DNA of 64,000 bases, taken from Massilia sp. R2A-15 (lineage in GTDB: Bacteria; Pseudomonadota; Gammaproteobacteria; Burkholderiales; Burkholderiaceae_D). Location: the NCBI RefSeq assembly GCF_030704305.1, contig NZ_CP131935.1:744001-808000 (forward strand), read 5' to 3'. Shown piece after piece: positions 14,889 to 33,412 of this stretch. The notes beneath the pieces are model-generated. The model searched no databases, was not told the origin of the DNA, and was given only the letters and a program-made list of their open reading frames with translations. The first letter of the stretch is position 1, and every line of letters starts with the position of its first letter. Position numbers and translations under genes: made by a program.

Positions 14889-14953
14889 GGGGTCAGGTCC
14901 GCAGGACCAGACCCCGATGCTGCCGACGCCGGGGTCTGGTCCCGCGGACCTTA
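14889..14953. repeat. Two palindromic repeats, opposite orientation
   Basis: Copy 14889-14915 (arms GGGGTCAGGTCC / GGACCAGACCCC, centre GCA) and a second, opposite-orientation copy at 14931-14953 whose last bases are degraded (CTTACG in place of CTGACCCC). They sit between the convergent ylqF and ygiD-like genes and could form one large cruciform. Confidence 0.8.
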
Positions 14954-28277: not shown

Positions 28278-29639
28278 CTATTCGAGCAGTCCCTGCACGC
28301 TGGCCACGCCCACTTCGGCGCTGCCTTCGGCCAGGCGTACGGTGAGCTTGTCGTTGACCCTGATCGCATACGGCGAGCGCAACACCTTGCCGGCGCCGTC
28401 GCGCACGATGGCGTAGCCGCGCTCGAGCGTGCGCTGCGGATTGAGCAGCTCGAGCTGCGCCGCCAGCGCGCCCAGCGCATGGCGCCGCGCCCCGAGCTGG
28501 CTGGCGAAGCTGGCGCCCAGGTGGCGCTGCTGGGAGGCGATTTCGGCGCGCCAGCCGCGCACGTCGGGACGGTGGCGCGACCAGCGCGCGCGCAGCTGTT
28601 CCAGCGTAAAGCTGTGGCGGTTGACCGGCGCGCGCACCGCATGCGTCATCGCGGTGGACAGCGCCAGCAGCTGCAGGCGCTGGTGGCCGATCCGCGCCGA
28701 CGGGCTCTGCAGCCGGCGCGCCCAGTTGTCCAGGTTCAGGTTCGCTTCCGACAGGGTGCGCCGCATCGCGCGCTTGAGGTCGATGCAGTCGGCCGACAGC
28801 GAGGCCATCCAGTCGGCGCGCGGCGTGGCCGCCAGTTCGGCCGCCGCGGTGGGCGTCGCCGCTCGCACGTCGGCGGCGAAGTCGGCGATGGTGAAGTCGG
28901 TCTCGTGGCCCACGCCGGCGATCACCGGCATGCTGCAGGCGGCGATCGCGCGCGCGACGATTTCTTCGTTGAAGCTCCACAGGTCTTCGATCGAGCCGCC
29001 GCCGCGGCACACCAGCAGCACGTCCACCTCGGCGCGGCGCGAGGCGCTGTGGATCGCGTCGGCAATCCGCTCGGCCGCGCCCTGGCCCTGCACCGGGCTC
29101 GGGTAGAGCACGATGCGCACGTGGGGGGCGCGCCGTCGCAGCGCGCTGAGTATGTCGCGCAGCGCCGCCGCCTGCGGGCTGGTGACGATGCCCACACTGC
29201 GTGTAAACAGCGGAAGAGGGCGCTTGCGCTCCTCGTCGAACAAGCCTTGCGCGCCCAGCTTTTCCTTGAGCCGCAGGAAAGCCTCGAACAGGGCGCCCAC
29301 GCCGGCGCGCCGGATCGCTTCCACGTTGATCTGGTAGTCGCCGCGCGCGCCGTACAGCGTGACGAGCGCGCGCACCTCGACCTTGTCGCCCTCGCGCGGA
29401 ATGAAGCCGGCGTACTGGGCGCGGCCGCGGAACATCACCGCGCGCACCTGCGCCGCATCGTCCTTCAGCGTGAAATACCAGTGGCCGGAACTGGCGCGCG
29501 TGAAGTTCGAGATCTCGCCGCCGATCCAGGTCAGGGGGAAACTGCGCTCGAGCAGGCGCGCGACCTGCTGGTTCAGCGCGGTGACCGTCAGGACGGGTGG
29601 GGCGGCAACTGGGGCGTCAGGGTCGAAGAGGCTGTGCAT
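28278..29639 (-). CDS. xseA: Exodeoxyribonuclease VII large subunit
   Basis: 453 residues: N-terminal OB-fold ([28 protein letters not shown]...GHWYFTLKD), catalytic region with [30 protein letters not shown] and [15 protein letters not shown], then a long coiled-coil and a short C-terminal beta segment. With XseB it degrades single-stranded DNA into oligonucleotides; xseB is not in the window. ATG 29639 chosen over an upstream in-frame TTG at 29660. Its upstream side faces the DnaA-box array. Confidence 0.93.
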
Positions 29640-29751
29640 GGGGCTGGAATCTGTCCACAAAAATTTCTGGCGGTCATGCTTATGTCACAAATTGTTCAAG
29701 ACTTCAAGCATTTCTTGTCAAGTGCCTGATTTTAAAAGGGAAAACGGCATG

Positions 29752-29849
29752 CCTCATTTTCTCGCAGGAATGAAAAAGCCTTACGGATCAAGGACTTTGG
29801 CCACACCCCGCGCACTTGCTCACAAAGTTGTCCACATTTTCTGTGGCAA
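29752..29849 (+). repeat. DnaA-box element, copy 1 (most diverged)
   Basis: CCTCATTTTCTCGCAGG start at 29752, ATCAA at 29787, box TTGTCCACA at 29828-29836, flanked by CACA (29821) and TGTGG (29842). Confidence 0.7.
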
Positions 29850-29889
29850 AGCGCGGCGCGCCGCTGTGGAAAACCAGCGTTTTTTGCTG

Positions 29890-29987
29890 CCTCTTTTTTA
29901 AGCGTCAAAAAATTTCTCAATGGAATCAACCACTTCGCATGGGGTTGAGCCCATTGCTCACAATCTTATCCACAAAAGGTGTGCAGA
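29890..29987 (+). repeat. DnaA-box element, copy 2
   Basis: CCTC start at 29890, ATCAA at 29925, box TTATCCACA at 29966-29974, followed by TGTGCAGAAAG. Confidence 0.8.
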
Positions 29988-30071
29988 AAGCCGTCGGGGA
30001 TTGAAATCGCTGAGCCGAACAGCATGACACAAACCGAAATTTCGTGGTTTTCTCCACAAAACGGCCGGGTG

Positions 30072-30170
30072 CCTTGTTTTTGCGCAAGGGAAAAATATGC
30101 ATATGAATCAAGGTGATGAGAGGCGGTGGAGGTCCTTGCGCACAATCTTATCCACAAAAATTGTGCAGAA
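30072..30170 (+). repeat. DnaA-box element, copy 3
   Basis: CCTTGTTTTTGCGCA at 30072, ATCAA at 30107, box TTATCCACA at 30148-30156, flanked by a perfect 7-bp inverted repeat GCACAAT / ATTGTGC. Confidence 0.85.
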
Positions 30171-30240
30171 CATCGCCGCAGGGGCAGGAAGCATGGCAAA
30201 CTCTTCTGATTGTCGGATTTTCCCCCAAAATTCCCCGCTG

Positions 30241-30340
30241 CCTCGTTTTTGCGCAGTGCAAAATTTTCCTTACGAATCAACGAACTTTCCTACAGTTAAG
30301 GTTCTTGCGCACATTCTTATCCACAAAAAATGTGCAGAAC
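30241..30340 (+). repeat. DnaA-box element, copy 4
   Basis: CCTCGTTTTTGCGCA at 30241, ATCAA at 30276, box TTATCCACA at 30317-30325, flanked by a perfect 7-bp inverted repeat GCACATT / AATGTGC. Confidence 0.85.
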
Positions 30341-30479
30341 GACTGGACGGCCATTCCTTCGTCCAAACTGAACGAAAACTCTCGTCCGTGGATAACTTCC
30401 GGGCGTTTGGCGGCTAGGATCCCGCCTCGGCCGCAAAAAATTGGCCGAAACGCCTTTTCGACGTTCATTTCATGCTCTG

Positions 30480-30579
30480 CCGTTTTTTCTCGCAGTAGGA
30501 ATTTTCCTATATAAATCAAGGAGCTTTCCTAGTGTCAAAGTTCTTGCGCACAATCTTATCCACAAAAAATGTGCAGAAA
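30480..30579 (+). repeat. DnaA-box element, copy 5
   Basis: Start at 30480 (CCGTTTTTTCTCGCAG), ATCAA at 30515, box TTATCCACA at 30556-30564, arms GCACA / TGTGC. Confidence 0.85.
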
Positions 30580-30712
30580 GGTGGACAAGTGCGCCGACCG
30601 AACGATCTCACCTCAATCGCCCCGAATCGCCTGATGTTCCGACCCGTTCCGGGCGTCCAACGGAGCAAAACATCCCGTCTTAGGGGCATTTTGACGATGA
30701 TTTCTCACGCTG

Positions 30713-30812
30713 CCTGATTTTTGCGCATGGGTAATTTATTCTTTAAAATCAACGGTCTTTCCTAGAGTCAAATTCCTTGCGCACAATGTTGTCCACAGAA
30801 GATGTGCAGAAC
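30713..30812 (+). repeat. DnaA-box element, copy 6
   Basis: CCTGATTTTTGCGCA at 30713, ATCAA at 30748, box TTGTCCACA at 30789-30797, arms GCACA / TGTGC. Confidence 0.85.
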
Positions 30813-30849
30813 TGTGCAACATCTGAGTGTTTCCACAGATCAATGCAAT

Positions 30850-30983
30850 GGGGTCAGGTCCGCAGGACCAGACCCCGATGCTGCCGGCGCCGCGTCACGA
30901 AGTCCGGGGTCTGGTCCTGCGGACCTGACCCCATTTTGCATCGAGCCCCTCAGGCCGGGGTCTGGTCCTGCGGACCTGACCCC
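30850..30983. repeat. Cluster of three palindromic repeats within the DnaA-box array
   Basis: Copies at 30850-30876, 30906-30932 and 30957-30983; the first is opposite to the other two. They enlarge the spacer between element copies 6 and 7. Confidence 0.9.
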
Positions 30984-31122
30984 ATCTTTATCAACAGCGC
31001 TACAGCTGCCCACCGTTTTCACTGGCCCGGCACGGAAACGACGGACAAAGCATCGGTGCCGGACGAGAAAGGGGCGCTAAAAGTTGGCCCTGGGACGTTT
31101 TTCTTCAACAATCCTCCACCTG

Positions 31123-31222
31123 CCTCGTTTTTGCGCAGCAAGATTTTTCCCTTAAGAATCAACGCTCTTTCCCATAGTCAAATTCCTTGCGCACAATCTT
31201 ATCCACAGAAGATGTGCAGAAC
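31123..31222 (+). repeat. DnaA-box element, copy 7 (next to exbB)
   Basis: CCTCGTTTTTGCGCA at 31123, ATCAA at 31158, box TTATCCACA at 31199-31207, arms GCACA / TGTGC. Its box lies about 95 bases before the exbB start. Confidence 0.85.
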
Positions 31223-31228
31223 TATACT
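31199..31228 (+). promoter_or_regulatory. Candidate exbB promoter overlapping a DnaA box
   Basis: TATACT at 31223-31228 is a good -10. The position 17-18 bases upstream where a -35 would be is occupied by the DnaA box, not by a TTGACA-like hexamer. DnaA could therefore activate or repress here. Inferred from spacing only. Confidence 0.4.
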
Positions 31229-31302
31229 TGCCGTTCAGCTGGCAACAAGTTACATTGCCGCATTCACCAGTTTGTCGTTCCACCTTATTCTCAGGAGTTC
31301 CT

Positions 31303-31908
31303 TTGCTCGCCATTCTTCAAGCTGCAGGCTGGCCAATCTGGCTGTTGCTGATTGCCTCCGTCGTCGCCCTGGCCCTGATTTTCGAGCGCCTGATTTACCT
31401 GCGCCGCGCCAAGATCCTGCCGAAGCAGCTGCTCGCCGAGGTCATCCGCGTGTATCACAACGGCCAGATCACGCCCGACATCATCGACAAGCTCGAGCAC
31501 AGCTCGCCGCTGGGCGCCGTGCTGGCCGCCGCGCTGCGCAACATCGACGCCCCGCGCGACGTGATGAAGGAATCGATCGAGGAGGCCGGCCGCGGCGTGG
31601 CCCACGTGCTCGAGCGCTTCCTGACCACCCTCGGCACCATCGCCTCGCTGGCGCCGCTGATGGGCCTGTTCGGCACCGTGGTCGGCATGATCGAAATTTT
31701 TGGCGCGCAAAATTCTTCCGGCACCAACCCGGCCCAGCTCGCGCACGGCATTTCTGTGGCGCTGTATAACACCGGCTTCGGTCTGGCCATCGCGATGCCG
31801 GCCCTGGTGTTCTACCGTCACTTCCGCGCGCTGGTCGATTCCTTCATCATCGACATGGAACTGCAGGCGGTGAAATTCGTCGACGTCGTCCACGGTGCCC
31901 GCAAATGA
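31303..31908 (+). CDS. exbB: ExbB/TolQ-family proton-channel protein
   Basis: 201 residues with three membrane segments: near the N terminus (GWPIWLLLIASVVALALIF), and a pair around LGTIASLAPLMGLFGTVVGMIEIF and ISVALYNTGFGLAIAMPALVFY, the MotA/TolQ/ExbB signature. With ExbD it powers TonB. Start is TTG 31303, with CAGGAG 5-7 bases upstream; the in-frame extension to 31228 has no site. ATGA overlap with exbD. First gene of the run to kdsB. Confidence 0.92.
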   Translation: MLAILQAAGWPIWLLLIASVVALALIFERLIYLRRAKILPKQLLAEVIRVYHNGQITPDIIDKLEHSSPLGAVLAAALRNIDAPRDVMKESIEEAGRGVAHVLERFLTTLGTIASLAPLMGLFGTVVGMIEIFGAQNSSGTNPAQLAHGISVALYNTGFGLAIAMPALVFYRHFRALVDSFIIDMELQAVKFVDVVHGARK

Positions 31909-32351
31909 TCGATTTCCGGCGCGGCCGCAAACGCGAGGATCCGGAAATTAACCTGATCCCGTTCATCGACGTGCTGCTGGTGGTGCTGATCTTCCTGATG
32001 GTCACCACCACCTACAGCAAGTTCACCGAACTGCAGATCACGCTGCCGACCGCCGACGCCGAGAAGGCGCTCGACCGGCCGTTTGAAATCAACGTGACCG
32101 TCGACGCCAAGGGCAACTACACGGTCAACAACCAGCCGGTGTCGTTCCACACGGTGGCCGGCCTGGCCGACGACCTGAAGGCCGCCGCGAAAGCCGGTGC
32201 GCCGAACGCGACCGCGGCCAACAGCCCGGTGGTGATCGTCAACGCCGACCAGTTCGCGATGCACCAAATGGTCATCAACGTGCTCGAGGCGGCGCGCATC
32301 GCCGGCTACGACAAGCTGACCTTCGCGGCCCAGACCGCCGGCAAGAAGTAA
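31905..32351 (+). CDS. exbD: ExbD/TolR-family protein
   Basis: 148 residues: short cytoplasmic N terminus, one membrane helix with the proton-path Asp (INLIPFIDVLLVVLIFLMVTTTY), and a periplasmic domain. Works with ExbB to couple the proton gradient to TonB; the btuB receptor in this window is one possible client. ATG 31905 overlaps the exbB stop. Confidence 0.93.
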   Translation: MIDFRRGRKREDPEINLIPFIDVLLVVLIFLMVTTTYSKFTELQITLPTADAEKALDRPFEINVTVDAKGNYTVNNQPVSFHTVAGLADDLKAAAKAGAPNATAANSPVVIVNADQFAMHQMVINVLEAARIAGYDKLTFAAQTAGKK

Positions 32352-32386: not shown

Positions 32387-33412
32387 ATGTCCGCATCCAA
32401 TCCTTCCCTCGAAGCCATCCTCACCCGCGCCTGGCTGCGCCGCGGCCCGCTGGCCTGCGCGCTGTGGCCGCTGTCGCTGGTCTTTCGCGCGCTCTCGGGC
32501 CTGCGCGTGCTGCTGTTTCGCGCCGGCGTCCTCAAGTCGCACAGGCTGCCCGTGCCGGTGGTCGTGGTCGGCAACATCTTCATCGGCGGCACCGGCAAGA
32601 CGCCGCTGACGATCTGGCTGGCCGAGGTCCTGCGCGCGGCCGGCTTCACGCCCGGGATCATCTCGCGCGGCCACGGGGGCGACGGCAGCGTGCCGCGCGA
32701 AGTCACGCTCGATGCGCTGGCCGGCGAGGTCGGCGACGAACCCTTGCTGATCGCGCGCCGCAGCGGCTGCCCGGTGATGGTTGGGCGCGACCGGCCGCAG
32801 GCGGGCAGGGCGCTGCTGGCGGCGCACCCGAACGTGAACGTCATCATCAGCGACGACGGCCTGCAGCATTACGCCTTGCATCGCGACGTGGAAATCGTGC
32901 TGTTCGACGGCCGCGGCGCCGGCAACGGCTGGCTGCTGCCGGCCGGTCCGCTGCGCGAGCCGGTGTCGCGCCGGCGCGACTTCACCGTGGTCAACGCGCC
33001 GCAGATGCCAGGCAACGTCGGCGGCCGGCCGTTTCGCATGCAGCTGGCCGGCAGGTTCGCCGAGCGCCTGGCGCAGCCGGCCGAACGCGTCGCGCTGACC
33101 GCGCTGGCCGGCAGGCGCATTGTCGCCGCGGCCGGCATCGGGAACCCGGGCCGCTTCTTCGCGATGCTGCGCGCCGAAGGCCTGGACTTCGCCGAGCTGC
33201 CGCTGCCGGACCACCACGACTTCCTCGACCAGCGGTTCGCGCGGGTCGACGCCGACATCATCCTGATCACCGAGAAGGATGCAGTAAAATGTAGGCAAAT
33301 TGAAAATCTCAGCAACGACCCGAGACTGTGGGTCGTTCCGGTGACGGCGCAATTAGACGCCGCGCTGGCCGAACAAATTGTGGAGAAATGTCGTGGATGC
33401 TCGACTGCTTGA
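32387..33412 (+). CDS. lpxK: Tetraacyldisaccharide 4'-kinase (lipid A)
   Basis: 341 residues. Walker A in [21 protein letters not shown], then RGHGG and DDGLQHYAL motifs of LpxK. Adds the 4'-phosphate to lipid A precursor on the inner-membrane cytoplasmic face; an N-terminal hydrophobic helix is present. Starts 35 bases after exbD; its end overlaps the Trm112-like gene. Confidence 0.94.

Follow-up and report, generated by a model that had tools for sequence, protein, structure and literature searches.

Why would a genome carry a dense group of binding sites for the initiator protein DnaA far from its dnaA gene? We investigated this question in a 64,000-nucleotide stretch of Massilia sp. R2A-15 (contig NZ_CP131935.1, positions 744,001 to 808,000), which we call the window and number from its first nucleotide. 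Non-coding DNA between xseA and an exbB/tolQ-type gene contains seven units of ~100 bp, all in one orientation and with fixed internal spacing. The motif TTRTCCACA occurs seven times in 1,471 bp here and nowhere else in the 64-kb window; in 2,000 dinucleotide shuffles of the span it averaged 0.02 and never exceeded 1. This box density is far beyond chance. The host genome is a single contig of 5,028,452 bp (5.03 Mb), with the array at 774-775 kb and dnaA at 4,153 kb; the original prediction from this DNA, that the array lies far from dnaA, was correct. Judging by the sequence, these units are likely to be compact DnaA-reactivating sequence (DARS)-type elements, seven in tandem, that would turn ADP-DnaA into ATP-DnaA. 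The units appear to represent a conserved DARS-type element of the order Burkholderiales, amplified sevenfold in this genome.

Alignment of the units shows three 9-mer DnaA boxes in each of the seven. A weak box III (TTGCGCACA or TTGCTCACA) is followed after 3 bp by a strong box II (TTATCCACA in five units and TTGTCCACA in two), and this is followed after 5 bp by an opposed box I on the other strand, which starts 14 bp past the strong box's own start and reads TGTGCAGAA in units 2-7 and TGTGGCAAA in unit 1. The unit is therefore wider than originally described, with an extra box III before the strong box and the opposed box I after it. On re-reading the sequence, the seven unit starts and box positions proposed earlier all proved right, as did the five-to-two division of the strong box, and every unit has ATCAA at +35 and its strong box at +76. 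The CCT that was thought to open all units is present in six; unit 5 (30480) begins CCG. Upstream of the boxes lie an AATCAA-type site resembling the IHF consensus WATCAANNNNTTR and a 15-bp Fis-like element of the form G-N13-C with an A/T centre, the latter in 7/7 units. Unit 1 is the most divergent of the seven. The linker between its boxes III and II is AAG, which is also the commonest linker in other families (20/67).

This arrangement is the one found in the DARS loci of E. coli: PMC5742627 describes their core as a set of three boxes, spaced alike in DARS1 and DARS2, in which box I is opposite to II and III. With gaps given in bp, the core of DARS1 is TTATCCACT-5-TGTGGATAA-3-TGTGTATTA and that of DARS2 is TTATTCACC-5-TGTGGATAG-3-TGTGAAGAA. 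Read on the other strand, units 3, 4, 5 and 7 are TTCTGCACA-5-TGTGGATAA-3-TGTGCGCAA, and units 1, 2 and 6 vary in their letters and keep the same gaps. All seven units thus have box I opposed to boxes II and III, 5 bp between I and II, and 3 bp between II and III, and like DARS1 and DARS2 they are intergenic. Unlike them, the array sits at xseA-exbB instead of uvrB or mutH, has seven copies together, and consists of units whose activity is predicted. Among the functions suggested originally, reactivation by a DARS-like locus is strongly supported by this anatomy, both by the three-box geometry with its gaps and by the IHF-like and Fis-like sites.

Next, we scanned 48,008 bp of eight DnaA-bound E. 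coli loci with a 35-bp core matrix made from 67 cores of other families, with no E. coli sequence in the training set. The 67 relatives, which also serve for the IHF and Fis counts below, were filtered for a full triple of boxes. The top two places were DARS1 (32.9 bits) and the DARS2 core (21.9 bits). The other loci reached 10.4 (datA), 7.1 (polA), 2.0 (purH), -3.1 (nrdA), -4.5 (nrdD) and -6.4 bits (oriC), and additional places were a second site of the DARS2 region (6.6 bits) and a shifted reading of DARS1 (6.3 bits). In the window, the units score 32.8-38.8 bits and the next best place 1.1 bits. It is the opposed box I that makes the difference in score between loci. Another three-box set near DARS2 (L047 about 967-1001) was considered as the core and rejected; we place the core at L047 651-685 because of the sequence replaced in PMC4585315 and the matrix score. 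The double boxes of the nrdA, polA and purH promoters form a head-to-tail pair 3 bp apart, as boxes III and II do (PMC11317965). They differ in having no opposed box at 5 bp, with -3.1, 7.1 and 2.0 bits compared with the 32.8-38.8 bits of the units. Bacillus and Streptomyces also have DnaA-box clusters, with several strong boxes away from oriC; the window boxes differ from these in forming repeated three-box units with IHF-like sites.

The original prediction named the absence of this array between xseA and exbB in related genomes as one thing that would speak against it. We found the element conserved at this place far beyond the family. A box-pair pattern with up to two mismatches was present in 31/60 relatives, and its reversed control in 2/60 (one match each, in G020 and G038); among 30 fetched loci, 22 had both xseA and exbB, four had one and four had neither. 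For a motif-independent sample, we looked for the xseA protein across 150 genomes of the order, found it in 145, and fetched the upstream stretches of those for which no locus had been fetched before. xseA lies beside exbB in 101 of these genomes, so the rates for the order use only xseA matches and are not motif-selected. The full triple is present in 69 of the 101, boxes III and II in 18, II and I in 9, a single box in 2 and none in 3, and 28/36 families have the full triple at xseA-exbB in at least one genome. Outside the window's family, TTATCCACA occurs in xseA-exbB gaps 90 times on the forward strand and 5 times on the reverse (own genome, L048, excluded). TGTG follows after exactly 5 bp in 71 of the 90, the next commonest distance being 3 bp with 4 cases, and in 77 a CACA stands exactly 3 bp ahead, the next commonest being 1 bp with 5 cases; no triple filter was applied to these counts. 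In 44 genomes with no exbB in the fetched stretch, contig ends included, the I-II core lies within 1 kb of xseA in 12. Across the class, a related pattern (up to one mismatch) was found in 196/276 genomes, with at least four copies in 12 and no match of the reversed control. Nearly every core-bearing genome outside the window's family has one copy. DARS-type cores are therefore common, and the tandem array is the special feature.

Within the family, the exact pattern CACANNNTTRTCCACANNNNNTGTG is present in 133/145 genomes, and its reversed control has 0 matches. Genome-wide, at least four copies are present in 60/145 family genomes and seven copies in 8/9 genomes of genus g5; in three g5 genomes that were re-examined, all seven exact copies form one cluster. 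Judging from named contigs, arrays are found in Janthinobacterium, Duganella, Pseudoduganella and Massilia. The window's family thus seems to have amplified an element that is usually single-copy elsewhere in the order. No exact three-box core was found anywhere in 5/8 g26 genomes (G029, G224, G253, G266 and G277) or in 5/7 g6 genomes, where the core may have been lost or have diverged. Two f88 genomes with 7 and 8 triples (up to one mismatch) were candidates for a second array in the class; this was rejected, as the triples are scattered except for one pair 401 bp apart.

We read 16 Janthinobacterium arrays in full and found seven units in 12, six in two, five in one and four in one. For the alignment, 28 loci were tried (27/30 named loci and L031), six of which were incomplete, and only the 12 exact seven-unit Janthinobacterium arrays were aligned. 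Invariant positions make up 92% of the cores, 73% of the Fis-like elements, 70% of the IHF sites, 40% of the other unit positions and 33% of the spacers, and the inter-unit distances are identical in 11/12 arrays. Because the cores are near-invariant and the distances kept while the spacers drift, we conclude that the Janthinobacterium arrays are constrained unit by unit. The original idea of an element that spreads locally fits one array, that of G017 (L020, G017:C28), which is a 246-bp tandem repeat of 4.4 copies with 88% matches, spacers included. This is a recent duplication and shows how copies can arise. The idea does not fit most Janthinobacterium arrays, which have the same units at the same inter-unit distances across species, nor our search of the host genome with a 106-bp unit query, which gave no second locus, though three three-box cores with other flanks exist elsewhere.

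That query recovered units 2-7 plus a single 23-bp match with an E value of 0.86. The divergent unit 1 escaped it, a sign of limited sensitivity; at this sensitivity, the whole unit was not found at many loci of its own genome, as a dispersed repeat would be. The three further triples of the genome lie in the hemE-priA gap (L218, 4,247,452) and at a UvrD-like helicase gene (L216, 2,362,366 and 2,365,808), where the two three-box cores flank the gene 3.4 kb apart. When 30 of 150 hemE loci were examined, priA was in reach in 27, and a triple lay between the two genes in 13 of the 27 (own genome included), in 5 families. The hemE-priA gap is possibly a second conserved DARS locus. A different cluster (L214, G000:C1:4445058-4446202), adjoining nitronate monooxygenase and phosphorylase-family genes, has seven TTATCCACA and several variants in 1.1 kb, no three-box core, and a position ~292 kb from dnaA. 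We consider it a candidate for oriC or a second control locus; GC skew in 15 samples of 20 kb was too noisy for a firm placement of oriC.

We then compared the sites upstream of the boxes with those of DARS2, giving positions relative to box II. In E. coli DARS2, an inverted IHF-like site at -99 is separated by 3 bp from a direct one at -83, in agreement with the published gap of 3 bp between IHF-binding sites 1 and 2 (PMC4245941), and a Fis consensus lies at -137. In the window's family, a direct IHF-like site at -42 was found in 59/71 units with up to two mismatches and in 39/71 with up to one. These family rates are biased upwards, as loci L016-L041 were fetched by box-pattern match (L018, L037 and L038 were dropped as duplicates). 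In the 67 relatives of other families, an inverted IHF-like site (up to one mismatch) lies at -111 to -107 in 45, and other position bins average 0.4 and hold at most 3. An inverted site of this kind upstream of unit 1, outside the span described originally, lies in the same place and appears to be the counterpart of the one in these 45 relatives. The G-N13-C element lies at -78 in 46/67 of the other-family relatives and at -77 in 53/71 family units (36/67 and 35/71 under a stricter Fis rule). The units therefore resemble the DARS2 subtype in having both kinds of accessory site, IHF-like and Fis-like, on the side of box III. For IHF, the likeness to its set distances holds at the motif level only, the distances themselves being unlike those in E. 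coli: the window's family has a direct site 42 bp from box II, whereas DARS2 has an inverted one at -99 with a direct one at -83. For Fis, the element is kept across the order with a loose consensus, at -78/-77 as against -137, and the order of IHF and Fis sites in other families is unlike that in DARS2.

The host has the proteins that such sites would need. It encodes DnaA, both IHF alpha and IHF beta (above the model cut-offs), two HU-type proteins (HU models best, below cut-offs) and a Fis homologue (E 5e-18, 37% identity), together with a short DnaA-related protein that is probably Hda. The IHF beta gene (G000:C1:741645-741914) lies only ~32 kb away from the array. IHF and Fis are reported to stimulate DARS2 (PMC10380432, PMC5742627).

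From these data we infer that DnaA, IHF and Fis bind the array, and that nucleotide exchange there affects initiation. In E. coli, ADP-DnaA molecules on boxes I and II are described as interacting head to head, with box III supporting the complex (PMC10380432, PMC5742627). In the array, two DnaA molecules would sit on boxes III and II, head to tail across the 3-bp gap, and a third on the opposed box I would, across 5 bp, meet the box II molecule head to head; in E. coli, this arrangement causes ADP-DnaA to lose its ADP. Formation of the complex may be aided by IHF, which would bend the AATCAA site, and probably by Fis on the G-N13-C element. The apo-DnaA released would reload with ATP, and the ATP-DnaA would then fire oriC. 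Seven units would give a greater reactivation capacity, with 21 boxes for DnaA as a by-product. The replication-timing role proposed originally is likewise an inference.

Several observations weigh against reactivation by DARS-type units. The element seems to be dispensable, because 32/101 xseA-exbB genomes have no perfect triple and the exact triple is absent genome-wide in 12/145 family genomes. The direct IHF-like sites of the window carry one or two mismatches, the Fis motif is loose, and the order and distances of both elements differ from DARS2; near E. coli DARS1, no IHF-like site with up to one mismatch was found. The cores that trained the matrix had been filtered for the full triple, and the E. 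coli sequences were known beforehand, so the scan is an independent but not a blind test; the gap counts made with no triple filter are free of this problem. PMC4245941 calls the DARS2 core specific to gamma-proteobacteria related to E. coli, and likewise Fis. The host's Fis homologue disagrees with the restriction of Fis stated there. Other sources describe DARS-like sequences as conserved in many proteobacteria (PMC10380432) or similar sequences in beta- or gamma-proteobacteria near E. coli (PMC5742627). Furthermore, the distance of DARS from oriC is reported as fixed among E. coli strains (PMC4585315), whereas across 14 genomes the distance from the array locus to dnaA takes values between 0.17 and 0.97 of a half-chromosome. 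This was measured to dnaA and not to a proven oriC, with a rounded genome size for 3 of the 14 and with the multi-contig G018 and G163 left out of 16. We regard a fixed oriC distance as a property of one species rather than part of the definition of DARS.

How else might the array act? As mainly a sink for DnaA, its 21 boxes would delay initiation until they were replicated and leave the nucleotide state unchanged. Strong and weak boxes at high density suit this, E. coli DnaA is described as preferring double boxes whose gap is 2 or 3 bp (PMC11317965), and a statement on E. coli in PMC12371093 was counted in its support. However, a sink needs no opposed box at exactly 5 bp, no IHF-like site at a fixed distance and no single orientation (90 vs 5), and the single copy of nearly every core-bearing genome outside the window's family makes little of a sink. 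We therefore think it unlikely that titration is the main function. Somewhat less probable again is that DnaA at these sites regulates exbB or xseA, so that an envelope operon, or exonuclease VII, would be coupled with the cell cycle. The array does occupy the xseA and exbB promoter regions, with a possible exbB promoter (TATACT) overlapped by unit 7, and E. coli DARS1 is upstream of uvrB, a reported DnaA target (PMC11317965). Yet the distance from box II to the start of the exbB alignment ranges from 48 to 530 bp in the 67 relatives, the units extend ~1.5 kb upstream, the I-II core stays near xseA in 12 of the 44 genomes with no exbB in the stretch, and more triples occur at hemE-priA and beside the UvrD-like gene. 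Both titration and control of exbB may coexist with reactivation.

The opposite activity, inactivation as at datA, would have IHF bend the array so that ATP-DnaA on both sides hydrolyses its ATP; we think this very improbable. datA and the array share an IHF site with DnaA boxes and a 3-bp double box, and the array has its IHF-like site at a fixed distance from the DnaA boxes. The datA layout, with IHF between essential DnaA boxes, is not found within a unit; it is possible between neighbouring units, as an IHF-like site in the array has the preceding unit's core on one side and its own core on the other. Against this, datA scores 10.4 bits and has no opposed box I at 5 bp. Finally, we give almost no credence to a small, locally multiplying repeat or structured RNA in which the DnaA boxes are incidental, although copy number differs between species and G017 has its 4.4 tandem copies of 246 bp; the unit query gave no second locus in its own genome, and the cores are kept while the spacers drift. 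As a mobile element, the whole unit was rejected on the same query result. As a structured RNA it was rejected as well: five position pairs beside CACA/TGTG are complementary no more often than independence predicts, and an Rfam search of 29600-31400 (E up to 10) gave 17 matches, none at the gathering score and most on a palindrome, GGGGTCAGGTCC.

That palindrome belongs to a repeat around GGGGTCAGGTCC-GGACCAGACCCC with 3 copies at 30847-30988, in the spacer of units 6 and 7. GGGGTCAGGTCC has 17 matches within the window (e.g., at 14889, 22314, 37650 and 53054) and 38 in 300 kb sampled genome-wide, one sampled stretch of which overlaps the window. It is a dispersed repeat resembling repetitive extragenic palindromic elements and is unrelated to the DnaA units. 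The features of the locus and the neighbouring genes are listed in Table 1, where the exbB/tolQ-type gene is named to the family level only because its TolQ match scores below the cut-off.

Table 1. Coordinates in the window of the array units, their sites and the flanking genes
Feature	Position	Strand	Fis-like element	IHF-like site	Box III	Box II	Opposed box I	Core matrix (bits)	Remarks
xseA	28278..29660	-							Exodeoxyribonuclease VII large subunit, left neighbour of array; NCBIfam TIGR00237, 465 bits, cut-off 180
Inverted IHF-like site	29719-29731	-							CAAGTGCCTGATT, upstream of unit 1; 1 mismatch to WATCAANNNNTTR
Unit 1	29751..29850	+	29751-29765	29786-29798 (2 mismatches)	TTGCTCACA 29816-29824	TTGTCCACA 29828-29836	TGTGGCAAA 29842-29850	32.8	
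Unit 2	29889..29988	+	29889-29903	29924-29936	29954-29962	TTATCCACA 29966-29974	29980-29988	34.8	
Unit 3	30071..30170	+	30071-30085	30106-30118	30136-30144	30148-30156	30162-30170	38.8	
Unit 4	30240..30339	+	30240-30254	30275-30287	30305-30313	30317-30325	30331-30339	34.5	
Unit 5	30479..30578	+	30479-30493	30514-30526	30544-30552	30556-30564	30570-30578	37.4	
Unit 6	30712..30811	+	30712-30726	30747-30759	30777-30785	TTGTCCACA 30789-30797	30803-30811	33.4	
Unit 7	31122..31221	+	31122-31136	31157-31169	31187-31195	31199-31207	31213-31221	37.5	Adjoins exbB
TATACT	31223-31228								Possible -10 element, directly past box I of unit 7
exbB/tolQ-type gene	31303..31908	+							Right neighbour, from putative start codon; best NCBIfam model TolQ, 78.9 bits, cut-off 221
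exbD/tolR-type gene	31905-32351								After exbB
lpxK	32387-33412								After exbD/tolR-type gene; NCBIfam score above cut-off

It is in E. coli that DnaA reactivation by DARS has been worked out; for other proteobacteria, the available text of the sources cited here goes no further than to mention similar sequences. None of the literature titles and abstract openings names a DARS at xseA-exbB or in Oxalobacteraceae, and an earlier mention is possible in the papers that PMC10380432 and PMC5742627 cite. If our reading is true, the order would have a DARS locus that can be found by xseA-exbB synteny, and a pile of DnaA boxes becomes a precise, falsifiable three-box prediction. A further proposal, which we make tentatively, is that Oxalobacteraceae set their ATP-DnaA level, and through it the initiation mass, by the number of DARS units, which perhaps work together as a single IHF-bent superstructure; in some genera the copy number is nearly constant, as in the 12/16 Janthinobacterium arrays with seven units. 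The proposal is weakened in that this number is not fully constant, with 4 to 6 units in the other 4/16. The family and its order would nevertheless provide a natural dosage series of 1 to 7 units, including the single-copy form elsewhere in the order, in which it would be testable whether DARS copy number sets initiation mass and how the positions of IHF and Fis tune the core.

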